A stretch of 64,000 nt of DNA from Synechococcales cyanobacterium S06 (GTDB lineage Bacteria; Cyanobacteriota; Cyanobacteriia; Cyanobacteriales; JAABRE01). This document shows positions 51,465 through 64,000 of the stretch, one piece after another. Positions within the stretch are counted from its first letter, which is position 1. Every line of letters starts with the position of its first letter. The notes beneath the pieces were generated by a model. It saw nothing but the letters and a program-made list of their open reading frames with translations. It did no database searches and was not told where the DNA came from. The position numbers and the translations under genes are program-made. The stretch is from positions 1 to 64,000 of the forward strand of contig JAABRE010000006.1 in NCBI GenBank assembly GCA_011391125.1. Reading direction: 5' to 3'.

Positions 51465-54400
51465 ATGCACCATAACGAAACTGTCTCCATGAATCATCAA
51501 CTGCCAGAAAAACAAGGACTATACGATCCACAATTTGAACATGATGCCTGCGGTGTAGGTTTTATTGTTCATCAGAAAGGGCAAAAATCCCATGACATTG
51601 TCCAACAAGCACTGACCATCTTAATTAATTTAGATCACCGGGGAGCTTGTTGTGAACCGAATACCGGTGACGGAGCGGGAATTTTGATGCAAATTCCCCA
51701 CAAATTCCTGACCAAAGTAGCCGCCGCCGAAAACATCAGCTTACCAGAAGTAGGCAACTACGGCGTTGGCATGATTTTCAGTTCACCCGATCCCGAAAAA
51801 CGCCAAAAAGCAAGACAACTTTTTGAGGAAATTGTAGCCGAAGAAGGGCAAAAAGTCCTCGGTTGGCGGATAATTCCCACGGACAATTTATCCTTGGGCA
51901 AATCAGCAAAAGCGTCAGAACCCTTTATGCAACAGGTGTTCATTGATCGCCACCCGGAACTGAAAGACGATTTGGCATTTGAACGCAAATTATACATCAT
52001 CCGAAAAAGGACCCACTTTGAAATTCACCGCGAAGGAGGAGACAAACACTGGTACGCGGCGAGCATTTCCTGTCGTACCCTAGTCTATAAAGGGATGTTA
52101 ATGCCCGAACAGGTCGGCAAATATTACCTCGACTTAAACGATCCTGACATGGAAAGCGCCCTGGCCTTGGTCCATTCGCGTTTTAGCACCAATACTTTCC
52201 CCAGTTGGGAACGATCTCACCCCTACCGTTACATCGCCCATAACGGTGAAATTAACACCATGCGAGGTAACATCAACTGGATGAATGCGCGTCAGTCGCT
52301 TTTTGAGTCAGAATTATTCGGCGATGACCTCAAAAAAGTGCGCCATGCGATCAACATTAACGGTAGTGACTCAGGTATTTTCGACAACGCCCTGGAATTG
52401 TTGACCTTGTCAGGGCGATCGCTCCCCCACGCTGTTATGATGATGGTACCCGAACCTTGGTCAGGTCACGAGTCCATGAGTCCAGAGAAAAAAGCCTTCT
52501 ATAAATACCATTCCTGTTTAATGGAACCATGGGACGGACCGGCGAGTATCGCCTTCACCGATGGTACAATCATGGGAGCAGTGCTAGATCGCAACGGTTT
52601 ACGACCTTCTCGGTATTATGTCACCAAAGATGACCTCGTAATTATGGCATCGGAAGCGGGAGTTTTACCCATCGAACCTGAAAGAGTAGCATTCAAAGGT
52701 CGTTTACAACCCGGTAGAATGTTCCTAGTTGACATGAAAGAAGGCCGAATCATCGACGACGAAGAAATTAAGGCCAAAATTGCCACCGAAAAACCCTATC
52801 AACAGTGGTTAGACGCTAATTTAGTGGAATTAGACAGCTTACCCGACGCTGAAAATGTCCCCAGCAGCGATCTTGCAACCATTACCCAACGTCAAATGGC
52901 CTTCGGTTACAGCTTTGAAGAAATCAGAATGTTGCTGAGTCCCATGGGTAAAAACGGCGTTGAAGCAACCGGCGCAATGGGTACAGATACCCCATTAGCA
53001 GTGCTTTCCAACCGTCCGAAAATCTTGTACGATTACTTCCAGCAGCTTTTTGCCCAAGTTACCAACCCGCCGATTGATTCAATCAGGGAAGAAATCATCA
53101 CTTCCGCCGTCACCACCATTGGTTCTGAACACAATTTATTAGCACCAACCCCCGAAAGTTGCCATTTAATCGAACTAAAAAGCCCAATTCTCAGTAACGC
53201 TGACTTAGCCAAAATTAAACAGCAAACTGAATTTAGCAATGTTACCCTTGAGATTCTTTTTAACCCCAAAAATGAGGTAAAAGGTCTTGAAGAGGCATTG
53301 GATGGTGTTTTTAGCGCTGCTGACAAGGCAATTAGCGAGGGATGCAGCCTCATCATTCTGAGCGATCGGGGTATCAGCAAAGACAAAGCACCAATTCCTG
53401 CCTTATTGGCAGTTGCTGGCTTACATCACCACTTGATTAGAACCGGTACTCGCACCCGTGTTGGCATTGTCCTCGAATCAGGAGAACCTCGGGAAGTCCA
53501 CCATTGCGCAGTTTTAATCGGTTATGGTTGTGGCGCAATTAATCCCTATTTGGCCTTTGAAACTTTAGAGCAAATGATTGCCGAAGGTTTATTGGTCGGC
53601 GTTGATCACAAAACCGCTTGTAAAAATTATATCAAAGCAGCCACCAAAGGAGTCACCAAAATTGCCTCTAAAATTGGCATTTCTACCCTCCAAAGTTATC
53701 GCGGAGCCCAGATTTTTGAGGCGATCGGCCTGAATAAATCAGTCATTGACAAGTATTTCAGTTGGACTGCTTCGCGGATCGAAGGTTCAGATTTGGCGGT
53801 CATTGCCAAGGAAGCGATTTTACGCCATAGTCATGGTTTCCCCGAACGTCCCACTGCAAATCCTACCTTGGATGTTGGTGGCGAATATCAATGGCGCAAA
53901 GATGGCGAAAAACACCTGCTGAGTCCCGAAGCAATTCACACCTTGCAAAAAGCGGTCCAGTTAGGCGATTATAACTTGTATAAGAAATATGCCAGTGAAA
54001 TTAACGAGCAGAATCAGCAAACCTTTACCCTGCGCGGTTTATTGGACTTCAAAAAACGCGAGTCCATTCCTTTAGAGGAAGTTGAACCCCTCGAAGCGAT
54101 CCTGAAACGCTTTAAAACAGGGGCTATGAGCTACGGTTCAATTTCTAAGGAGGCCCATGAAGCGTTGGCCATTGCCATGAATCGCATCGGCGGTAAATCC
54201 AACACCGGGGAAGGAGGGGAAGACCCCGAACGTTACACCTGGACCAACGAAAAAGGGGACTCTAAAAATAGTGCCATCAAACAGGTTGCTTCGGGTCGTT
54301 TTGGGGTGACCAGTTTGTACCTTTCCCAAGCTAAGGAAATTCAGATCAAGATGGCGCAAGGGGCAAAACCCGGCGAAGGTGGTCAACTTCCGGGGTTAAA

Positions 54401-56063
54401 AGTCTATCCTTGGATTGCCAAGGTTCGTCACTCAACCCCCGGTGTCGGCTTAATTTCACCCCCTCCTCACCACGATATTTATTCCATTGAGGATTTGGCG
54501 GAGTTAATCCACGATCTAAAAAATGCCAATCGGGAAGCAAGGATCAATGTGAAGTTGGTTTCAGAAGTTGGCGTAGGTACAATTGCGGCCGGTGTAGCCA
54601 AAGCTCATGCTGATGTTGTCCTCATTTCTGGCTTTGACGGAGGAACTGGTGCATCGCCTCAAACTTCAATTAAACACGCAGGATTACCTTGGGAGTTAGG
54701 TTTGGCGGAAACTCACCAGACTTTGGTCCTCAATAATTTGCGTAGTCGGATTGTGGTGGAAACTGACGGACAGTTGAAAACTGGTCGGGATATTGCGATC
54801 GCTGCGTTACTCGGAGCGGAAGAATTTGGCTTCTCCACCGGTCCTCTGGTCACGTTAGGTTGTATTATGATGCGAGTTTGTCATCTAAATACTTGTCCCG
54901 TGGGAATTGCGACCCAAAATCCCGATTTACGGGCGAAATTCACCGGTGATCCCGAATATACGGTGAATTTCATGAAGTTTATCGCGACGGAATTGCGCGA
55001 AATTATGGCCGAGTTGGGTTTCCGTACTTTAACGGAAATGGTTGGCCGGACCGAGGTTTTGGAAGCGAAAAAAGCGGTGGATCATTGGAAAGCTAAGGGA
55101 ATTGACCTTTCTAACCTGCTTTATCAACCCGAAGTCGGTCCTGAAGTCGGTCGCTATTGTCAGATTCCCCAAGACCACGGGTTGGCAAAATCCCTCGACA
55201 TGACGACTTTGTTAGATTTGTGCAAAGGGGCGATCGAAAATGGTGAGAAAGTTTCTGCAACTTTGCCCATTACCAATGTTAATCGCGTAGTCGGTACGAT
55301 TTTGGGTAACGAAATCACCAAAAAACATTGGGAAGGTTTACCAGAAGACACCGTCCACCTCAAATTTAATGGTAGTGCAGGTCAAAGTTTAGGCGCGTTC
55401 GTACCCAAGGGTGTGACCATTGAATTAGAAGGCGATGCTAATGATTATTTAGGTAAGGGTTTGAGCGGTGGCAAAATCATCGTTTATCCGCCCAAAGTGT
55501 CAACTTTTGTCGCTGAGGAAAATATCATTGCTGGTAATGTTGCCTTTTACGGTGCAACCAGTGGGGAAGCCTACATTCGCGGTGTCGTTGGCGAGCGTTT
55601 CTGTGTGCGCAATTCCGGCGTTGCTGCGGTGGTTGAAGGCGTGGGCGATCATGCTTGCGAATACATGACCGGTGGTAAAGTTGTCGTGTTAGGTAAAACT
55701 GGTCGCAACTTTGCTGCGGGAATGAGCGGCGGTATTGCATACATCCTCGATGAAAACGGCGACTTTGCCCAACATTGTAATACCAGTATGGCGGATTTGG
55801 AAACCCTTGATCCCGAGGATATGGACACAGTGCATACATTAATCAGCAATCACGTCAAATATACGGAAAGTTCAAAAGGTGCGCAAGTATTAGAGAACTG
55901 GGAATCAATGTCCGCTAAATTCGTGAAAGTGATGCCCCGGGATTACAAACGGGTGTTAAACGCGATTAAGGAAGCGTTGGAAGCGGGTTTAAGCGGTGAT
56001 GACGCACTTAATGCAGCTTTCGAGAAAAACGCGGCCGATGTCGCCAGAATTGGTGGTAGCTAG
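51465..56063 (+). CDS. gltB: Glutamate synthase large subunit
   Basis: Makes glutamate from glutamine and 2-oxoglutarate. The 1532-residue protein has the N-terminal nucleophile Cys29 in HDACGVGF (after propeptide removal), the glutaminase domain, the FMN-binding synthase domain ([34 protein letters not shown]) and an iron-sulfur motif [24 protein letters not shown] glycine-rich beta-helix forms the C terminus. It could be the NADH- or ferredoxin-dependent type; no small subunit is adjacent. Its last 16 codons are duplicated at 60253. Confidence 0.95.
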
Positions 56064-56089
56064 GTTCGTTGTTGCGCTTTAGCGCTAAC

Positions 56090-56113
56090 GTAGGTGGGCA
56101 TTGCCCACCCTAC
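56090..56113. terminator. Hairpin after gltB
   Basis: GTAGGTGGGCA and TTGCCCACCCTAC form a near-perfect hairpin 26 bp after the stop, followed by TAATCTTTCC. It shares ends with the GTGGGCAA element family and is preceded by the CGTTGTTGCGCTTTAGCGC repeat. Confidence 0.55.
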
Positions 56114-56195
56114 TAATCTTTCCCGTTATTTCGTTATAAAAAACCAATTTGCATTATAATTAAACTTATGTTATTAACTATGAAATATAAAGTCA

Positions 56196-56702
56196 ATGAA
56201 AAAAAACACATTAACTGTAATTGGGATTTTCTTATTAATTTTTGGTGTGCCATTCTTAATAGAATCTTTTAGAGTTCAAAAATTTCTTAATACACTTAAT
56301 AGAATTTCTGATAAATCTTTTTCTGATCAGAAATTAACTCAAGAAGAGATAAACAATGTATCAAGCTATTATAATTATTATGGAGGAGATGTTAAGGCAA
56401 TAAATACAGGTCAATTTTTATGTCAATTAATCAAAGAAAGATACCCTTTACCTCCCTTTATTACAGTAAATGAAGTTACTAACCGCGAATATTTAGATGG
56501 ATATTTAGGTTTTTATGTAATTTCACCTTTTTATGCTGGTTTTGCTTTTTCTAATGGAGAATTATATAAAAGTCTTAGTTATACTGAAGATTTATTTACA
56601 ATTGTAGATGATCAAGTTCCTGAAAATTTTGATGTATTATCTTCAGCTATTTTTGCAGCTTCTGTGGAGGTTTATTGTCCTAAATATAAATTTAATGAAT
56701 GA
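56196..56702 (+). CDS. Hypothetical membrane-anchored protein
   Basis: A 168-residue protein with one N-terminal hydrophobic segment (LTVIGIFLLIFGVPFLIESF) that is probably an uncleaved anchor. The rest is soluble and tyrosine-rich (VSSYYNYYGGDVKAINTGQFLCQLIKERYPLPPF). No family is recognised. It is the first gene of the accessory island after gltB, and the first intergenic repeat copy follows 18 bp after its stop. AT content is higher than in gltB. Confidence 0.45.
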   Translation: MKKNTLTVIGIFLLIFGVPFLIESFRVQKFLNTLNRISDKSFSDQKLTQEEINNVSSYYNYYGGDVKAINTGQFLCQLIKERYPLPPFITVNEVTNREYLDGYLGFYVISPFYAGFAFSNGELYKSLSYTEDLFTIVDDQVPENFDVLSSAIFAASVEVYCPKYKFNE

Positions 56703-56719
56703 TATTTTCTAACTAAAGT

Positions 56720-56792
56720 TGTTAAAATTTAGCACAGGTTAGCTATTTTTAGCTTACAATATTAACAGATAAATAGGGCGATCGCCCTTTCT
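56720..56792. repeat. Island intergenic repeat, copy A
   Basis: The core is CTATTTTTAGCTTACAATAT, then TAACAGATAAATA and the palindrome AGGGCGATCGCCCT. Here the core spans 56743-56792, and the TTAAAATTTAGCA arm shared with copy B starts near 56722. It lies 3' of the hypothetical gene and 5' of hicB. Confidence 0.9.
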
Positions 56793-56818
56793 AATAAATT
56801 TTATTTAAGGAGGTAATT

Positions 56819-57031
56819 ATGACTAATACCTATACGGCAATTATTCAGGAAGATGGAGATTGGTGGATTGGTTGGATCGAAGAAATTCCGGGGGTAAATT
56901 GTCAAGAAAAAACCAGAGAAGAATTATTGAAAACCTTAAAAATTACCCTAGAAGAAGCTTTAGAATTTAATAGACAAGATGCTATTAATGCAGCAATTGG
57001 TAACTATCAAATTGAAAAAATTGCCGTATGA
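56819..57031 (+). CDS. hicB: HicB-like antitoxin
   Basis: A 70-residue protein with the partially degraded RNase H-like fold of HicB: YTAIIQEDGDWWIGWIEEIPGVNCQEKTREELLKTLKITLEEALEF. It blocks HicA and probably represses the pair. A strong AAGGAGG site lies 5 bases before the ATG. The next gene overlaps by 4 bp (ATGA). Confidence 0.88.
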   Translation: MTNTYTAIIQEDGDWWIGWIEEIPGVNCQEKTREELLKTLKITLEEALEFNRQDAINAAIGNYQIEKIAV

Positions 57032-57216
57032 AACGTAAAGAATTTATCCAATATTTGCGTTCTCAAGGTTGCGAAATAATTAGGGAAGGAAGTAATCATT
57101 CTTGGTGGTGTAATCCAGAATTTAATACTAGAAGTGCTATTCCTCGACATAATGAAATTAAGGATATTTTGGCTAAAAAAATCTGTAAAGACCTTGGAAT
57201 TCCACCAATTAAGTAG
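57028..57216 (+). CDS. hicA: HicA-like mRNA interferase toxin
   Basis: A 62-residue double-stranded-RNA-binding-type toxin: KRKEFIQYLRSQGCEIIREGSNHSWWCNPEF has the conserved GSNHSWW with the catalytic histidine; RSAIPRHNEIKDILAKKICKDLGI follows. It would cleave mRNA when HicB is lost. The pair forms the second module of the island. Confidence 0.9.
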   Translation: MKRKEFIQYLRSQGCEIIREGSNHSWWCNPEFNTRSAIPRHNEIKDILAKKICKDLGIPPIK

Positions 57217-57218
57217 CT

Positions 57219-57300
57219 TAAATTAGTTAAAATTTAGCAAGGGTAGCTATTTTTAGTTTACAATATTAACAGATAAATAAGGGCGATCGCCCTTCCTACC
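57219..57300. repeat. Island intergenic repeat, copy B
   Basis: Starts 2 bp after the hicA stop with the TTAAAATTTAGCA arm and continues through GCTATTTTTAGTTTACAATA to GGGCGATCGCCC. Nearly identical to copy A over about 75 bp. Confidence 0.9.
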
Positions 57301-57332
57301 AAATTTTAAATATATATTATTGTTTAATCAGA

Positions 57333-58178
57333 ATGCTTACACAAGAAATAATTAATTTAGGTGAACCATATTTTCAGAGTGAAAATTGTTTGATTTATAA
57401 TTTAGATTGTTTAGAATCAATGCTAAAAATGCCGTCTGAATGTATTAATTTAACAGTGACAAGTCCACCTTATAATATTGGTAAAGAATATGAAAATATT
57501 TTACCTTTATCGGATTATTTAAAATGGTGTGAAAAATGGATTCAACAAATTTATAAATTAACCGTTAATGATGGTTCTTTTTGGCTAAATTTAGGTTATT
57601 TATCAATTCCAAATTCTGCTAAAGCTATTCCTATTTCTTATTTACTTTGGGATAAAATTCCTTTTTATTTAATTCAAGAAATTGTCTGGAATTATGGAGC
57701 AGGAGTAGCCGCCAAAAACTTTTTTTCTCCCCGCAATGAGAAGTTTCTTTGGTATGTTAAAAATCAGGAAAATTATACTTTTAATTTAGATGAAATTAGG
57801 GATAAAAATGTTAAATATCCTAATCAAAAAAAGAATGGTAAAATTAAAGTCAATCCTTTAGGAAAAAACCCTACTGATGTTTGGCAAATTCCGAAAGTAA
57901 CATCAGGAAAAGATAGATCATCTCAAGAAAGAACCTCTCATCCTGCTCAATTTCCTTTGACAGTAATTGATCGAATTATTAAGGCTTCTTCTCATCCTAA
58001 TGATCTAATTTTAGACCCCTTTTTAGGATCAGGAACTACGGCGATCGCGGCTTTAAATTTAAACAGAAAATTTATCGGTTTTGAAATACGTCAAGATTAC
58101 TGCGATCTTGCAGTTAATAGAATTAATAATTTTTGCCAAAATGAAACTATTAAAAAGTCTCAATTATCTTTATTTTAA
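57333..58178 (+). CDS. DNA N4-cytosine methyltransferase of a ScaI-like system
   Basis: A 281-residue DNA methyltransferase. SPPY at 44-47 (rather than DPPY) indicates cytosine N4 methylation. The cofactor motif is LILDPFLGSGTTAIAALNLNRKFIGFE near the C terminus, preceded by HPAQFPLTVIDRIIKASS. Enzymes of this order belong to the beta class. Its tail overlaps the convergent endonuclease gene by 9 bp, so the two form an RM pair. Confidence 0.85.
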   Translation: MLTQEIINLGEPYFQSENCLIYNLDCLESMLKMPSECINLTVTSPPYNIGKEYENILPLSDYLKWCEKWIQQIYKLTVNDGSFWLNLGYLSIPNSAKAIPISYLLWDKIPFYLIQEIVWNYGAGVAAKNFFSPRNEKFLWYVKNQENYTFNLDEIRDKNVKYPNQKKNGKIKVNPLGKNPTDVWQIPKVTSGKDRSSQERTSHPAQFPLTVIDRIIKASSHPNDLILDPFLGSGTTAIAALNLNRKFIGFEIRQDYCDLAVNRINNFCQNETIKKSQLSLF

Positions 58179-58775
58179 AGGTAATTCTAATAGTTTATAA
58201 CGTTGGACTTCCGGACTTAATCTAGCCTGTTGTCCAGTTTGAGCTTTTTGACCTAACCAGTCAAACTCATCTAACCAACCAAAACGAATTTTATTAATTT
58301 TAGGTAGTTCATTTTCAATTTTTGAGTTAATTTTAGGAAAATTTACTGCTAAATAATAACCTGATTTATTTTTTTTTGTTTGTTGTCCAGTAGTGCTTTT
58401 TTGTGCGTAACTACGATTACCATAAATACTACCAGAACTAGAAGAAGTTTTTAATTCTATTGAAAAATAATCATTAGGAATATAAACAATATCTTTGTCA
58501 TAATCTTTGTCTTCTTTTCGCCATAATTCAGGATATCTCGTCGCAAATTCTAAAGGGATAAGTTCATGTAATAATGTTCCTAAAAATTGAGGACGAGGGA
58601 ATAAATCTATACCTATTTTATACTTTCTACTTGTAATTTCAGAGGTAAATAATTCTGCCCACATTTTATTAACTATTTCCACTATTTCTTCCGTATTAAT
58701 AGGGTGTTGGGCAATTAATTCTTTTGTTTTTGTTTCCCAATTTTCTGTTGATATTCCCTGATATGGTGAAATCAT
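58170..58775 (-). CDS. Type II restriction endonuclease, ScaI-like
   Basis: A 201-residue protein that matches my memory of the ScaI family: SPYQGISTENWETKTKELI, KIGIDLFPRPQFLGTLLHELIPLEFATRYPELWR, IELKTSS, GNRSYAQKSTTGQQTKKNKSGYYLAVNF and GQKAQTGQQARLSPEVQRYKLLEL. The nuclease core is Asp95 and Glu107-x-Lys109. ScaI cuts AGTACT and its methylase makes m4C, consistent with the SPPY partner. The start codon follows the controller stop directly (TAAATG). Confidence 0.78.
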   Translation of the reverse strand: MISPYQGISTENWETKTKELIAQHPINTEEIVEIVNKMWAELFTSEITSRKYKIGIDLFPRPQFLGTLLHELIPLEFATRYPELWRKEDKDYDKDIVYIPNDYFSIELKTSSSSGSIYGNRSYAQKSTTGQQTKKNKSGYYLAVNFPKINSKIENELPKINKIRFGWLDEFDWLGQKAQTGQQARLSPEVQRYKLLELPLK

Positions 58776-58997
58776 TTATTCAATTCCTTTAAATAATTCA
58801 CTTAATGACATTTCCAAAGTGGTAGCAATCTTTAAAAGATTCAAAAAAGCAACGTTTCTTTCACCTCTTTCAATTCCACCAATGTAATTACGATGTAGTC
58901 CACATAATTCGGCAAATTCCTCTTGAGATAACCCTTTTGCCATTCTGAGACTACGCACTTTTACACCTAATTTTTTTAACTCTGAATTTTGTTTCAC
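58776..58997 (-). CDS. RM controller protein, XRE-type helix-turn-helix
   Basis: A 73-residue C-protein: [60 protein letters not shown]. It starts with GTG only 4 bp from an operator-like dyad, and no ribosome site precedes it, so its mRNA may be leaderless. It is translated just ahead of the endonuclease and divergent from the m5C methylase, so it probably controls both sides. Confidence 0.85.
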
Positions 58998-59000
58998 ATC

Positions 59001-59047
59001 CCCACTATATGGGATCAGAGTTCTTTTTCCTACACACTATGAGTGTG
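59001..59047. promoter_or_regulatory. Paired operators of the ScaI-like system
   Basis: Two dyads, CCCACTATATGGG (59001-59013) and CACACTATGAGTGTG (59033-59047), share a CACTAT core and are each followed by GATC. They lie between the controller and the m5C methylase genes, the expected place for C-protein binding. Minus-strand CATATAGT and CATAGT within them could be -10 elements. Confidence 0.6.
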
Positions 59048-59097
59048 ATCCGTGTTTTTGTGTTAAACTAATTTTGTTATTGATTTATTTAAGTAAA

Positions 59098-60183
59098 ATG
59101 CAAAAAAATAATAATTTGTTAAATAAACACCCTTATAAAATCCTTAAAAATCCCCAATCAACTAACTTTAATGTCATGGAATTATTTGCCGGTTGTGGGG
59201 GAATGGCCTTGGGTTTTGAAAATGCAGGTCTTCAAACTAAATTATTAGTAGAAATTGATAAAACCTGTTCTGAAACTTTGGCAAAAAATCGCCCTCATTG
59301 GCATATTATTAATCAGGATGTTACCCAATTAAAGTTTAGTGAATATAATAGTCAAGTTGACATTGTCGCTGGTGGTTTTCCTTGTCAAGCTTTTAGTCAT
59401 GCTGGGGAAAGAAAGGGTTTTTTAGACACTAGAGGAACTTTATTTTTTGAGTTTGCTAGATGTGTAAAGGAAGTAAACCCCAAAATGGTGATCGCCGAAA
59501 ATGTGCGCGGTTTAATTACCCATAAAAATGGCGAAACTTTAGCGATAATTTTAAATACTTTAGATGAATTGGGTTATAATTGTAGTTATAAATTACTTAA
59601 TGCGAGTTATTTAGATGTTCCTCAAAAAAGAGAGCGAATTTTTATTATTGCCACCCAAAAAGACCTTAATATTAAACCAATTTTTCCGACTGAAAATTCC
59701 TATATTATTACTTTAAAAGAAGCCTTAAAAGACTGTCCAAAATCACAGGGAGTTAGCTATAATCAGAGGAAAAAAGAGATTATGGACTTAGTACCCGAAG
59801 GAGGAAATTGGCGTAATTTACCCGAAGAAATCCAAAAAGAATATATGAAAAATAGTTACTATCAAGGAGGAGGAAGAACGGGTTTTGCGAAAAGATTATC
59901 ATACAATGAACCTAGTTTAACCGTTACTTGTTCTCCTGCTCAAACACAAACTGAAAGATGTCATCCCACGGAAACCAGACCTTTAACAGTAAGGGAATAT
60001 GCGAGAATTCAAACATTTCCTGATAGTTGGGAATTTATGGGTTCATTAACTGGCCAATATAAACAAATTGGTAATGCAGTTCCTGTTAATATGGCCTATC
60101 ATATTGGTAAATGTTTAATAGAAATGTTAACAGGAAAATCAGAAAGTTATCGCCAAGAATTAAGGCAATTATCTTTATTTTAA
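59098..60183 (+). CDS. DNA C5-cytosine methyltransferase
   Basis: A 361-residue m5C methylase from the ATG at 59098 (the frame extends to a TTG at 59074). Motif I is MELFAGCGGMALGFENAGL, the catalytic Cys96 is in GGFPCQAFSHAGERKG, ENV is in VIAENVRGL, and the C-terminal motifs are LTVREYARIQTFP and QIGNAVPVNMA. All key residues are intact. Its target is unknown. Bases 59143-59415 are identical to the start of a second methylase at 63728-64000. Confidence 0.92.
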   Translation: MQKNNNLLNKHPYKILKNPQSTNFNVMELFAGCGGMALGFENAGLQTKLLVEIDKTCSETLAKNRPHWHIINQDVTQLKFSEYNSQVDIVAGGFPCQAFSHAGERKGFLDTRGTLFFEFARCVKEVNPKMVIAENVRGLITHKNGETLAIILNTLDELGYNCSYKLLNASYLDVPQKRERIFIIATQKDLNIKPIFPTENSYIITLKEALKDCPKSQGVSYNQRKKEIMDLVPEGGNWRNLPEEIQKEYMKNSYYQGGGRTGFAKRLSYNEPSLTVTCSPAQTQTERCHPTETRPLTVREYARIQTFPDSWEFMGSLTGQYKQIGNAVPVNMAYHIGKCLIEMLTGKSESYRQELRQLSLF

Positions 60184-60251
60184 TCTTGTAATTATACTCT
60201 ATTTTTAGCTTAGAATATTAACAAATAAGTAGGGCGATCGCTTTTTCTATT
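60184..60251. repeat. Island intergenic repeat, copy C
   Basis: Starts right after the m5C methylase stop. The core CTATTTTTAGCTTAGAATAT lies at 60199-60218 and GGGCGATCGC ends at 60241, so the right half of the palindrome is lost. The gltB 3'-end copy begins within 2 bp of the end of this repeat. Confidence 0.85.
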
Positions 60252-60252
60252 T

Positions 60253-60300
60253 GCTTTCGAGAAAAACGCTGCTGACGTAGCCAGAATTGGTGGTAGTTAG
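60253..60300 (+). pseudogene. gltB: Displaced copy of the gltB 3' end
   Basis: Sixteen codons ending in TAG, reading [15 protein letters not shown], identical in protein to the end of intact gltB (56016-56063). Five codons differ, all synonymously (GCG/GCT, GCC/GCT, GAT/GAC, GTC/GTA, AGC/AGT). Homology continues about 28 bp beyond the stop through CGTTGTTGCGCT. There is no upstream gltB sequence, so it is a fragment left by insertion or recombination. Confidence 0.9.
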
Positions 60301-60440
60301 GTTCGTTGTTGCGCTAAAGCGCTAAGGTAGGTTGGCAGTGCAACGGCCTACCAACTAATTATTAACAAAAATTGTTTAATATACAGATTTATTGTAAAAT
60401 ATAACAAGGTTAAATTTAAACAAAAAATAAAGTAAAAATT

Positions 60441-61022
60441 ATGGCAACTAAACTTTTACCTGCAAAAGTACAGAAAGAAATTGCTAGACTCTCTGAAAAA
60501 TCTCAAAATACCATTACCCGTGACGACCTAGAAAAATTAGTTTTACTTGTCTATCCTAGTAAATCTGAACAGAAATCTAACCATAATATTAAACTATCTA
60601 TTTCAGAAAAACCTTTAAAACTTGCGGAAATTAAAGAAGCAATATATAAACGTTTTGATGTTAAAAATACTGACGAATTAAAGAAATCAGGCCAATTTCA
60701 AATGGCCACTGATGGACTGGGAAAATTAAATTTTAATAACAAAGAAACATGGGAAATGTTATATCGTAAATGGATTGATATTCTTCCCGATGAAACCAAT
60801 CAAGAAGGTTATGGTTGTATTAATGGTATTGACATTTTTAAATATTCTCGACCTTGGCAAGTTTTTAATTTAGACGGAAAAACTGCCACTAAAGAAGATG
60901 TCAAAAAAGCTTTTTATCAATTATCTAAAATTTATCATCCTGATAATCAAGAAACAGGCGATCGAAAAATCTTTGAACGTCTTAATAAAATGTATGATAG
61001 TTTAATTGCAGGAATATCTTAA
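60441..61022 (+). CDS. J-domain-containing protein
   Basis: A 193-residue protein whose last 60 residues form a DnaJ-like J domain: RPWQVFNLDGKTATKEDVKKAFYQLSKIYHPDNQETGDRKIFERLNKMYDSLI with HPD at YHPDN, the motif that stimulates Hsp70. The N-terminal part is unfamiliar and lysine-rich. A J domain at the C terminus of a small island protein suggests recruitment of the host Hsp70. A ribosome site is weak. Confidence 0.7.
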   Translation: MATKLLPAKVQKEIARLSEKSQNTITRDDLEKLVLLVYPSKSEQKSNHNIKLSISEKPLKLAEIKEAIYKRFDVKNTDELKKSGQFQMATDGLGKLNFNNKETWEMLYRKWIDILPDETNQEGYGCINGIDIFKYSRPWQVFNLDGKTATKEDVKKAFYQLSKIYHPDNQETGDRKIFERLNKMYDSLIAGIS

Positions 61023-61103
61023 GGCGATCGAAAAATCTTTGATAGTTTTAATCCAATTTAATTTAAAATAGTCTAAATTGCTAATTACGGGAGTGTCTTA
61101 GAA

Positions 61104-62373
61104 ATGACAAATTCAAACATAATTAACAGAGAAGATTTTTTTTATTACTGAAGAATACGTTTTAAAAGGTCTGGAAATAAATAAGGAAGTTTTAGAAATA
61201 ATTATAGCCACCATAGAAAAAGATGAAAGTTTTATCTGGGAAGAAAATGTCCATTTCAGATATGTTCCTAAAAAGAATAAAACTAGACTTTTTGCTAGAC
61301 AAGGTCTCATTGTGATGGGAGAATTTTTTGATACTTCTTTTGATACTTCTGAAGAATTAACAAAATTAAAAACACTACTACAAAAAAAAGACAACGAGAT
61401 AGAATTAATTAAAATTGACCATGAAATTATTGAGAATACTTTAAAGGTTTTAGGTAATAATTCAGATAAAATCTTAGTTAAAGGAAATCGCCATTGGATG
61501 AATTTTAGCGATGTCCGCAAACTCTTTAAAACCACTACACCTCGTTTAAATCAGGCCTTTGAAGATATTGCCCGTTCTGATCTACCATTATTTATAGAAG
61601 AAGATTTTGATGACATAGAAGATCAACGTTATTATTCTTTTTCAGGTTTAGAAAGAATTGGTAATGAATTATCTAATACCTTAACTAGAAAATCTAAAGC
61701 TTTATTTGTTAACAGAGCCAAGAAAAAATCTCCTGACCAAATACAAAAAGTCTATAGTCCTATTCTTCCCTCAGAACAGAAGATTACAAGTGCTATGACA
61801 CAAGCAAGAACACAACAAAATAAGGTCTGTCAAGTTACAGGGGAATCTGATCCAAAATTAGCAGTACATCATCTTTATGATAAAAGTACCTATCCTGAAT
61901 TAGCTATAGATCAAGATAATCTTATCCTGATTAAAGAGCCAATACACCATAATTTTCATGCTTGGAATGAAGGTTTTGATAAACCCTGTACTATAAATGA
62001 TTTTATCTCTTATATCAAAACAATGCAACCTGAATTTTATGAGCATATTGCATTTGAACTTGATAAACGTCAACTAGCTTTACAAACAAAATTAAAATAC
62101 CGTTCTAAATTCAAACCATTAGAACCAGCTTCAACCAAATCCATTGATACAGAATCACCTAAAAATAAGATAACTTCTCAGGAATCAATTAATAGAAATA
62201 TTCTTGGCAAAACTACTTTTGCAAATATCAATAATGAACAAGTAGAAGGTAAAATCTTAGCAATTTCTACTACATACGGTTCAGATCAAAAACCAATTAT
62301 TTCTCTTTGTTTTCAAAAAAAGGAACATAAATATGGAATTTGGTTGCCTTCTTCAGCTTTTATTAATCAATAG
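61104..62373 (+). pseudogene. HNH endonuclease-like protein, frameshifted at a T8 tract
   Basis: A reading of about 423 residues. Translation from ATG 61104 gives MTNSNIINREDFF, then the frame breaks at a run of eight T (61136-61143). With seven T it continues FITEEYVLKGLEINKEV into the intact downstream frame; the first ATG in that frame is 61309 (61312 is the next). An HNH-like centre lies near residue 250: CQVTGES, VHHLYDKS, DNLILI and HHNFHAWNEGF. The C terminus has a small beta-rich domain. It may be phase-variable, inactive or an assembly error. Confidence 0.75.
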
Positions 62374-62374
62374 C

Positions 62375-62487
62375 TGATTAGAGCGGTTTAAAATGCTAAG
62401 AATTGCGATCTATTTTTAGCTTACAATATTAACAGATAAATAGGGCGATCCCGCCGGAATCCGCGCGGAGCAGGTGCGCCCTTTCTA
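62375..62487. repeat. Island intergenic repeat, copy D, with a GC-rich insertion
   Basis: The core runs 62410-62487. Between GGGCGATC (ending 62450) and GCCCTTTCTA (from 62478) lies a 27-bp insertion with about 78% GC, CCGCCGGAATCCGCGCGGAG plus 7 bases, absent from the other copies. It lies just after the HNH gene stop and before xisH. Confidence 0.9.
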
Positions 62488-62521
62488 GTTAGTAAATATT
62501 TGAGGAAAAAATTTTATTTCT

Positions 62522-62962
62522 ATGCCATCAAGAGACATTATTCATAATATTGTTAAACAAGCAATCATTAAAGATGGCTGGAAAATAACCGATGATCCCT
62601 ATACTATTTCTTATGGGGAAAGATTTTTATTTATTGATTTGGGAGGTCAGCAAATTAAGGAAAATTCTCAAGGAGAGTTTATTGGAGCAGAAAAAGAAAA
62701 TCGAAAAATTGCCATTGAAATTAAAGATTTTCGCAGTAAATCAGATATTTCTGCTTTACAACAGGCCATCGGCCAATATACTCTTTATCAACTTCTTTTA
62801 AAGGAAATTGAACCTGATAGAAATATTTATTTGGCCATCACAAATTTTACTTATGACAATATTTTTTCTGAACCTATTGGTCAATTAGTTATTAATAAAC
62901 TTCCCTTAAAATTAATTGTTGTAAATTTAGCAAAAATGGAGGTTAAATTATGGATTCATTAA
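62522..62962 (+). CDS. xisH: XisH-like protein
   Basis: A 146-residue protein like XisH, first described as a factor controlling excision of the fdxN element in heterocyst-forming cyanobacteria. It has a nuclease-like core (ERFLFIDLGGQQI, AEKENRKIAIEIKDFRSKSDI, LQQAIGQYTLYQLLL), with an E-I-K motif resembling PD-(D/E)xK enzymes. No fdxN element is in this window, so a TA-like or defence role is possible. Its stop overlaps the xisI start. Confidence 0.88.
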   Translation: MPSRDIIHNIVKQAIIKDGWKITDDPYTISYGERFLFIDLGGQQIKENSQGEFIGAEKENRKIAIEIKDFRSKSDISALQQAIGQYTLYQLLLKEIEPDRNIYLAITNFTYDNIFSEPIGQLVINKLPLKLIVVNLAKMEVKLWIH

Positions 62963-63276
62963 CAAATAAACGCCAAATAATTAAAGAAGTTCTTAATTAT
63001 TATTCTCAATTTAAACCTTCCCATGGTGATATTCGTTTAGAAACTATTTTTGACGAAAATCAAGATAGATATGCTTTAATGCAAATAGGATGGGACAGGG
63101 GAAAAAGAATTAGGGGAAATTTAATTTATTTAGCTATTCGTGACGGAAAAATTTGGCTAGAATACGATGGAATAGAACAAGGAATTATTCAAGATTTAAT
63201 TAGTCAAGGTATCCCCGAAAATGAGATTATTTTAGGTTTTTTAACTGATGTTTCTTCTGTATCCTTAAGTGCATAA
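62950..63276 (+). CDS. xisI: XisI-like protein
   Basis: A 108-residue partner of XisH: QIIKEVLNYYSQFKPSHGDIRLETIFDENQDRYALMQIGWDRGKRIRGNLIYLAIRDGKIWLEYDGIEQGIIQDLISQGIPENEIILGF. It overlaps xisH by 13 bp, so the two are translationally coupled. XisHI pairs are common across cyanobacteria, and their biochemistry is unresolved. Confidence 0.9.
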   Translation: MDSLTNKRQIIKEVLNYYSQFKPSHGDIRLETIFDENQDRYALMQIGWDRGKRIRGNLIYLAIRDGKIWLEYDGIEQGIIQDLISQGIPENEIILGFLTDVSSVSLSA

Positions 63277-63283
63277 AAACGCC

Positions 63284-63338
63284 ATCTTTTTTAGCTTATA
63301 ATATACATATATCGGGGCGATCGATCGCCCTTTCTATC
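63284..63338. repeat. Island intergenic repeat, copy E
   Basis: CTTTTTTAGCTTATAATATA followed by GGGGCGATCGATCGCCCTTTCTA. The spacer is more diverged than in copies A-D and the palindrome has an extra GATC. It starts 8 bp after the xisI stop and ends about 21 bp before the next gene. Confidence 0.8.
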
Positions 63339-63359
63339 TGTTTTAATTTAATTAAAATA

Positions 63360-63704
63360 ATGATTTTTCCCCCTCGACCTATTAATAATGAACAAAAATT
63401 CATAACCACTCAAAATCGCCTTGATTTTCTCTTGGATAAACAGGAATTAAATCAAGATGAACGAGACTATCTTAAAATTTTAGGGATGTTAATTTACGAT
63501 TATGAGGAAAAATATGAGACTATTCCTAATCTTGAAGATATGGAAATAATTAGCTCACTTTTGACCGATTATAATTTAACAATTCAAGATTTATTACCAA
63601 TTTTTGTAGAGGAATCAACTATTATTAATATTTCGGAAGGAAAAAGAAAAATAACGTCAGAAGAAAAAGCAAAATTAGAGATTATGATTAATAATTTATT
63701 ATGA
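63360..63704 (+). CDS. HigA-like antitoxin-type protein
   Basis: A 114-residue protein with a HigA-like N-terminal part (NRLDFLLDKQELNQDERDYLKILGMLIYDYEEKY) and a short helix-turn-helix (LTDYNLTIQDLLPIFVEESTIINISEGKRKITSEEKAKL). No HigB toxin is adjacent. Its stop overlaps the start of the second m5C methylase by 4 bp (ATGA), so it may regulate that gene. Confidence 0.7.
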   Translation: MIFPPRPINNEQKFITTQNRLDFLLDKQELNQDERDYLKILGMLIYDYEEKYETIPNLEDMEIISSLLTDYNLTIQDLLPIFVEESTIINISEGKRKITSEEKAKLEIMINNLL

Positions 63705-64000
63705 TTAATAATGGTGAATATAAAATTCTTAAAAATCCCCAATCAACTAACTTTAATGTCATGGAATTATTTGCCGGTTGTGGGGGAATGGCCTTGGGTT
63801 TTGAAAATGCAGGTCTTCAAACTAAATTATTAGTAGAAATTGATAAAACCTGTTCTGAAACTTTGGCAAAAAATCGCCCTCATTGGCATATTATTAATCA
63901 GGATGTTACCCAATTAAAGTTTAGTGAATATAATAGTCAAGTTGACATTGTCGCTGGTGGTTTTCCTTGTCAAGCTTTTAGTCATGCTGGGGAAAGAAAG
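63701..64000 (+). CDS. Second DNA C5-cytosine methyltransferase, cut by the window end
   Basis: Starts MINNGEYKILKNPQ and runs to GERK at the window edge, 100 codons. From 63728 it is identical base for base to 59143-59415 of the first methylase; the first 9 codons differ. Motif I and the catalytic PCQ are present. The rest of the gene lies outside, so its integrity is unknown. Confidence 0.88.
   Translation, partial: MINNGEYKILKNPQSTNFNVMELFAGCGGMALGFENAGLQTKLLVEIDKTCSETLAKNRPHWHIINQDVTQLKFSEYNSQVDIVAGGFPCQAFSHAGERK

Follow-up and report, generated by a model that had tools for sequence, protein, structure and literature searches.

The window examined here comprises the first 64,000 nucleotides of contig C135 (GenBank JAABRE010000006.1) in the 4.81-Mb, 168-contig draft genome of the Synechococcales cyanobacterium S06. 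Behind its glutamate synthase gene, gltB, lies a row of about nine small modules of defence and toxin-antitoxin type, and at most of the joints stands a copy of an intergenic repeat, which we call R. The array continues past position 64000 on the same contig, where positions carry the prefix C135 (Table 1). Its order is gltB, open reading frame ORF168, R1, hicBA, R2, a set of methyltransferase, ScaI, helix-turn-helix (HTH) and dcm genes, R3, a relic of gltB, a J-domain protein, ORF353, R4, xisHI, R5, ORF114, a second copy of dcm, a decayed repeat copy (Rx), an Rpn-family nuclease, R6, a ParE/RelE-type pair, R7, Uma2, a gene read as an HTH remnant, R8, a CopM-type gene and a comB-like gene in reverse orientation. 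The island is AT-rich (30% GC); the block 52001-56000, mostly gltB, has 47% GC and the remaining 4-kb blocks of the window have 29-41%.

Structure and position of the repeat

R is approximately 50-65 bp long and consists of two halves. The best conserved is TATTTTTAGCTTACAATATTAACA, and the other is a GGGCGATCGCCC-type HIP1 palindrome. All copies are intergenic, lie on one strand and are spread over 10.6 kb, and R occurs only between head-to-tail genes. The five copies in the window, R1 to R5, had been recognized in an earlier reading of the letters alone, and we find them to be real and all on the plus strand. The 17-mer TTTTTAGCTTACAATAT, with three or fewer mismatches, matches the window six times, five of these being R1-R5, against 1.45 expected matches, and none of 100 shuffled sequences reaches six. 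The palindrome that was said to end each copy is intact in R1 and R2, as well as in R6, but it is broken on the right arm in R3, split in R4 (insert at 62451-62477) and expanded in R5 (to GGGCGATCGATCGCCC); it is also expanded in R8 and lost in R7. The exact HIP1 octamer, GCGATCGC, which occurs 20 times where 0.16 would be expected, is found in four of the eight intact copies of R (R1, R2, R3 and R6). This abundance of HIP1 is in keeping with a cyanobacterial genome, as are families such as xisH/xisI.

The copies lie close to stop codons, in agreement with the original prediction. The distance from stop to core is 40, 30, 15, 36 and 8 nt for R1-R5, 15 nt for Rx (counted from the stop position of dcm copy 1, copy 2 stopping earlier), and 120, 15 and 6 nt for R6-R8. 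The distance from the core to the next start codon is 76, 86, 242, 112 and 75 nt for R1-R5, 73 nt for Rx, and 90, 109 and 87 nt for R6-R8. Eight of the nine copies therefore fall between 73 and 112 nt, where the 112 nt at R4 include the insert, and the 242 nt at R3 include the gltB relic. A TANAAT box, variable only at its third base, is retained in all copies except R7.

The same prediction held that one repeat follows every module and is fixed to the 3' side of each. R does follow stop codons, but it equally precedes the next starts, and five boundaries carry no R, as read from the sequence: gltB/ORF168, HTH/dcm (divergent), J-domain/ORF353, ORF114/dcm copy 2 and Uma2/HTH remnant. The spacing to the start codon is at least as regular as that to the stop codon, which makes the 3' assignment ambiguous. 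R is thus tied to module borders and may belong to the preceding or the following module. The dcm gene is a special case. It lacks R on the 5' side in both copies and carries R on the 3' side in both, and it has no match in 20 other ScaI stretches (6.4-19.9 kb each). For these reasons dcm is probably a module of its own, which favours linkage to the 3' side for dcm only.

Table 1. Repeat copies, genes and relics of the array behind gltB (window positions unless marked C135).
Feature	Position	Strand	Basis or remark
gltB, glutamate synthase large subunit, left anchor	51465-56063	+	sequence reading; DNA matches of ~71-75% in other genomes
gltB 3' end plus flank, parent of relic	56016-56104	+	sequence comparison
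ORF168 (168 aa), no confident family	56196-56702	+	ORF reading, family search
R1 (copy A)	56736-56799	+	DNA search, covariance model
hicB-like antitoxin and HicA toxin	56819-57216	+	PF21748 below cut-off, PF07927 above
R2 (copy B)	57240-57304	+	DNA search, covariance model
N6/N4 DNA methyltransferase of ScaI-like system	57333-58178	+	family search
ScaI-family restriction endonuclease	58170-58775	-	family search
HTH protein beside restriction genes	58776-58997	-	similar neighbour in 13 of 20 other ScaI stretches
C5-cytosine methyltransferase (dcm), copy 1	59098-60183	+	family search, sequence comparison
R3 (copy C)	60192-60255	+	DNA search, covariance model
gltB 3'-end relic	60253-60341	+	89% identical to parent
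Protein with C-terminal J domain	60441-61022	+	family search
Tandem relic of J-domain gene 3' part, from GGCGATCG onward	61022-61060	+	sequence comparison
ORF353 (353 aa), frame apparently broken near 5' end	61312-62373	+	reading, family search; only weak PADLOC matches
R4 (copy D)	62403-62493	+	palindrome split by 27-bp GC-rich insert
xisH and xisI	62522-63276	+	family search
R5 (copy E)	63278-63342	+	covariance model
ORF114 (114 aa), no family found	63360-63704	+	family search
dcm copy 2, start; frame break; continues to C135:64745	63701-64000	+	sequence comparison
Rx, decayed copy	C135 near 64785	+	after second, broken dcm gene
R6	C135:65757-65820	+	covariance model; outside window
R7	C135:66351-66415	+	covariance model; outside window
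R8	C135:67301-67364	+	covariance model; outside window
CopM-type gene behind R8	C135:67395-68036 (L031 16396-17037)		family search

R is confined to this locus. A covariance model built from eight copies recovered those eight from the genome at E<=0.01, together with one reverse-strand match overlapping R6, and nothing else. Applied to the other 387 genomes in the order's sample of 388, the same model gave a single weak hit (E 0.004) in a search with stricter filters and 13 candidates scored per genome, which weak copies could escape. A DNA search of 60 genomes including this one returned the genome itself and two weak hits in others, and a degenerate 22-mer gave three single hits in unrelated bacteria among 84,980 species (records of the present genome were possibly left out) and none in viral contigs. 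By eye, the weak hits in C33, G021, G034 and G153 are chance matches or bare HIP1 palindromes. No Rfam family reaches its gathering threshold in 84 kb. The repeat is therefore not one that is scattered after housekeeping genes, since it is found only in the island.

Other repeats behave differently. The spacer directly behind gltB (56063-56135, GTTCGTTGTTGCGCTTTAGCGC...) is dispersed: it has 47 matches in the genome, 45 of them on other contigs, and most matches extend over no more than its first 24-36 bases. At another gltB locus (G059), a family of four copies has 36 matches across its own genome, some of which represent one site on both strands. When 121 loci were scanned for same-strand intergenic repeats, five or more copies of one family were found only at the present locus (seven, the detector having missed two of the nine copies); the next best were four copies in each of three loci, and the rest had fewer than four. 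One of the other families detected was checked and is dispersed (that of G059), and the others read as simple, coding or dispersed repeats. The array is real, private to its locus and exceptional in the sample examined. The matches listed to plasmids and phages are at the level of single genes or sets (methyltransferases, the ScaI set and xisHI), and none covers 80% of the island.

Duplicated gene ends and HIP1

Scars of recombination lie at or beside the repeats. The gltB relic, which comprises the last 48 coding bases and 41 more, starts directly after R3 and lies 4190 nt beyond the gltB stop, past foreign modules. The J-domain gene is followed by a tandem copy of its own 3' part. The dcm gene is present twice, with a frame break in the second copy; the two remain highly identical over the whole gene and for 13 nt after its stop, and their identity then drops at the start of R and ends within R3 and Rx.

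We searched for comparable relics, defined as truncated gene-end copies within 12 kb, at 123 loci: 20 stretches around ScaI homologues, 100 behind gltB and three loci of the genome itself. A first scan, of 592 genes of at least 100 aa, also returned paralogues and short-gene hits in dispersed repeats, and the limits were tightened afterwards to genes of at least 200 aa and relics of 30-300 nt. The resulting set of 28 relics does not include that of the J-domain gene, which encodes 193 aa. Relics are present at 14 of 136 gltB or gltD genes (the gltB of the island included) and at 9 of the 883 remaining genes (Fisher P 9e-8), in loci chosen around gltB and ScaI and not at random; among the nine are four loci of acs from a single genus and a set of three orthologous ones. 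No report of gltB or gltD as an accretion hotspot is among the literature matches listed.

The modules between anchor and relic are of a similar kind to those in the island. Judging from their sequences, they include TIR and macro-domain-like genes in L095 and VapBC-like pairs in L111, and transposase-like genes also lie between anchor and relic in L142 and L156. In L155 (2200-5800), gltB and gltD are separated by two relics of the gltD 5' end, together with two genes resembling Uma2, two pairs resembling toxin-antitoxin systems and a methyltransferase-like gene. Relics derive from 3' ends and, for gltD, also from 5' ends (L154, L155, L196 and L210), which argues against an integrase directed to a single 3' end. 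Break positions also vary among relatives at one anchor (-170, -153 and -44 at acs), unlike a fixed attachment site. Such a site in the gltD 3' end was considered and rejected, as breakpoints there cluster yet vary.

Several of these loci have further features. In L095 (2248-6000), gltD, the macro-domain-like gene and the TIR-like gene are accompanied by three relics of the gltD 3' end, two of which are preceded by a similar block of ~70-80 bp. L121, L122, L123 and L179 contain a gene read as acetyl-CoA synthetase (acs) with 3'-end relics and modules between; in these loci of one genus the break positions differ, and the order of modules differs between L121 and L123. In L111 (16400-17660), the gltD 3' end and a toxin-antitoxin-like unit are duplicated together, the second copy being decayed (91.6% over 427 nt).

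Relic ends coincide with HIP1 above chance. Eight of the 28 end within 4 nt of the octamer, against 0.84 expected (P 5e-7), and only 16 have HIP1 in reach. When likely shared events are collapsed, six of 23 remain, against 0.68 expected (P 2.6e-5). Five of the first 24 relics are near HIP1, as are three of four from loci L175-L214, which were fetched after the idea arose; of these, L196 probably goes back to one event with L154, a locus from the same genus that has a similar flank, and the octamer of L210 is imperfect in the relic. The HIP1 joints fall at different places in the genes (-171 in acs, -39 and +69 in gltD, and -91 in gltB), so that HIP1, rather than one gene position, is what they have in common. 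The octamer (GCGATCGC / GGCGATCGCC) is distributed genome-wide, whereas R adds to it a conserved half found only here.

One gltD relic, in L139, has its HIP1 site interrupted by a 25-bp GC-rich insert, for which a position after the third base is possible. According to PMC4390886, the small dispersed repeat SDR5 enters HIP1 between its third and fourth base. The 27-bp insert of R4 and that of L139 resemble SDR5 by its description only. R itself, unlike repeats of this type, is longer and not dispersed.

Origin of the array

We favour, with about as much doubt as confidence, the interpretation that the island is an accretion array and not an integron, in which modules were added behind gltB by recombination at short homologies and HIP1. 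Foreign modules (toxin-antitoxin pairs, a restriction system, xisHI, and Rpn and Uma2-type nucleases) would have been added stepwise. Where incoming DNA has a conserved gene end, or R, in common with the chromosome, it would recombine there on one side, while the other side would close at a short homology, often HIP1, and a truncated copy of the anchor would be left beyond the new module. Repetition of this process at gltB would stack the modules. In this species, the HIP1-containing R would have come to occupy most of the joints and, once there, would supply homology for further events. We infer that R itself recombines, through HIP1 or through homology between R copies, that the incoming DNA came from relatives, and that R was multiplied in this way.

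Several observations weigh against accretion through HIP1. The array was read in one genome, the relatives compared all lying outside its genus and family, and any movement of junctions within R is hypothetical. The gltB relic of the island breaks away from HIP1; that stretch of gltB has none, and the HIP1 of R3 is 11 nt off. Homology between R copies mostly ends ~8 nt beyond HIP1 rather than at it, R7 lacks the palindrome altogether, and those of R3, R4, R5 and R8 are altered. Moreover, 20 of the 28 relics break away from HIP1, and the 4-nt tolerance was chosen after the junctions had been seen, leaving L137, 6 nt off, uncounted. PMC4390886 cites indications that speak for accretion, namely a part played by HIP1 in site-specific recombination and, with lower efficiency, in illegitimate recombination; it also states that no evidence ties HIP1 to homologous recombination. 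Finally, conservation within R is strongest in the TATTTTTAGCTTACAATATTAACA half, a pattern that recombination at HIP1 leaves unexplained. The obvious reason for its conservation would be a promoter function, given the TANAAT box and the regular distance to the start, and this could coexist with accretion.

Accretion has partial precedents. Minimal mobile elements and additive flexible genomic islands are likewise variable gene modules between conserved genes; these are defined by strain comparison, and a private repeat between modules is not a feature known of them. Homology-facilitated illegitimate recombination, a process described in PMC2884548, and small variable segments fit the gene-end duplications and the varying breakpoints beside foreign modules. 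Here, in contrast, many events are stacked at one locus, and the breaks in relatives favour HIP1 above expectation. The matches listed from the literature on integrons, defence islands, HIP1 and illegitimate recombination, most subscription papers lying outside them, contain no report of this array. The growth of defence islands that lack an obvious mobile element and the purpose of HIP1 both become testable here, where a private repeat marks module borders and the gltB and gltD relics break at HIP1 about nine times above expectation. If joints at R or HIP1 move between strains, ordinary short-homology recombination would yield an integron-like outcome in cyanobacteria.

A stronger version of this idea is a cassette system without a recombinase, in which the HIP1-bearing R would be the working site for capture, shuffling and loss of modules, with HIP1 acting likewise at gltB and gltD elsewhere. 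The octamer is found at the joints of those eight relics and in half of the intact R copies, but in R the joints are not precisely at it. We regard this version as a tentative possibility.

Alternatively, R may be a cis-regulatory unit, with a promoter and hairpin leader common to the modules, whose copying was selected for expression or co-regulation, so that the array consists of units of R plus a gene. The narrow range of distances to the next start, the TANAAT box and the restriction to head-to-tail genes all argue for such a unit. However, the island holds no excess of sigma-70-like sites (58 against 56.9 expected), and at the TANAAT box such a site is flagged in R6 and R8 alone. By eye, no R-like leader is seen upstream of the ScaI methyltransferase in the 14 of 20 loci viewed, and both copies of dcm lack an R before them. 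We also considered R as the native leader of copM, with the other copies as relics, and rejected it: at 29 other copM loci, none of the 27 leaders beats its own shuffles when aligned with R. Six of those 27 leaders share a CTCCAG-CTAGAG operator-like motif, which is not found at the CopM-type gene of the array. On balance, a purely regulatory origin seems rather unlikely.

In the integron-like reading, every cassette would end on its 3' side in an R, which would serve as the recombination site and be cut by an enzyme whose gene lies elsewhere. The likeness to chromosomal integron arrays and to clusters of attC sites lacking integron-integrases (CALIN) lies in lineage-private, same-strand repeats after the stops of small toxin-antitoxin and restriction-modification modules at one locus. 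Repeats private to the locus follow nine module ends, dcm carries R only on its 3' side, and the cargo is of a kind known from cassette arrays. In contrast, attC sites have the cores RYYYAAC and GTTRRRY, and these are present in none of the nine repeats on either strand. Folding of single-stranded DNA compared with shuffles is inconsistent (z from -3.4 to +1.3, below -2 in two of eight copies), and several module boundaries have no R. The draft genome contains no integron integrase that we could find; its one partial Phage_integrase match (profile positions 8-100 of 172) has an interrupted frame and lies on contig C117, while three serine recombinase matches lie on contigs C112, C83 and C18. 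None of the island proteins searched matches a recombinase family except, by name, the Rpn-family protein (TIGR01784, above cut-off; the family name is recombination-promoting nuclease), which we do not take as the agent, as nothing links Rpn to R. The integron logic of the original prediction therefore fails on absent cores, inconsistent fold and a single partial tyrosine recombinase, and attC with its integrase is rejected; the analogy holds for the outcome, not for the mechanism. A site cut by a recombinase encoded elsewhere is improbable.

Insertion after stop codons by a miniature transposable element, whether a MITE or one derived from IS200/IS605, is poorly compatible with the data and very improbable. 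In R6 and R7 the inverted arms on either side of the palindrome position are nearly complete, but most copies lack such arms, no shared target duplication is seen by eye, and all eight copies lie in one orientation in one 10.6-kb locus with none at unrelated loci. A transcription terminator after each unit is hardly credible: a GC-rich hairpin follows most module ends and terminator-like sites are in excess in the region (13 versus 5.4 expected), but those on the plus strand coincide only with R5, R8 and R4 (at the insert), R1, R2 and R8 have flagged sites on the opposite strand, no hairpin is present in R3 or R7, and the T run is short.

Some features of the modules themselves were also apparent. 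The module previously read as J-domain/HNH does encode a J domain; ORF353, its HNH part in that reading, gives only weak PADLOC matches. The ScaI nuclease is matched in 49 of the 388 genomes of the order, this one included, and two E. coli plasmid records match part of the ScaI-type set (57333-58997) at ~67% DNA identity. Both methyltransferases share the C-terminal residues QLSLF (58160-58178 and 60165-60183), which resemble a sliding-clamp binding motif.

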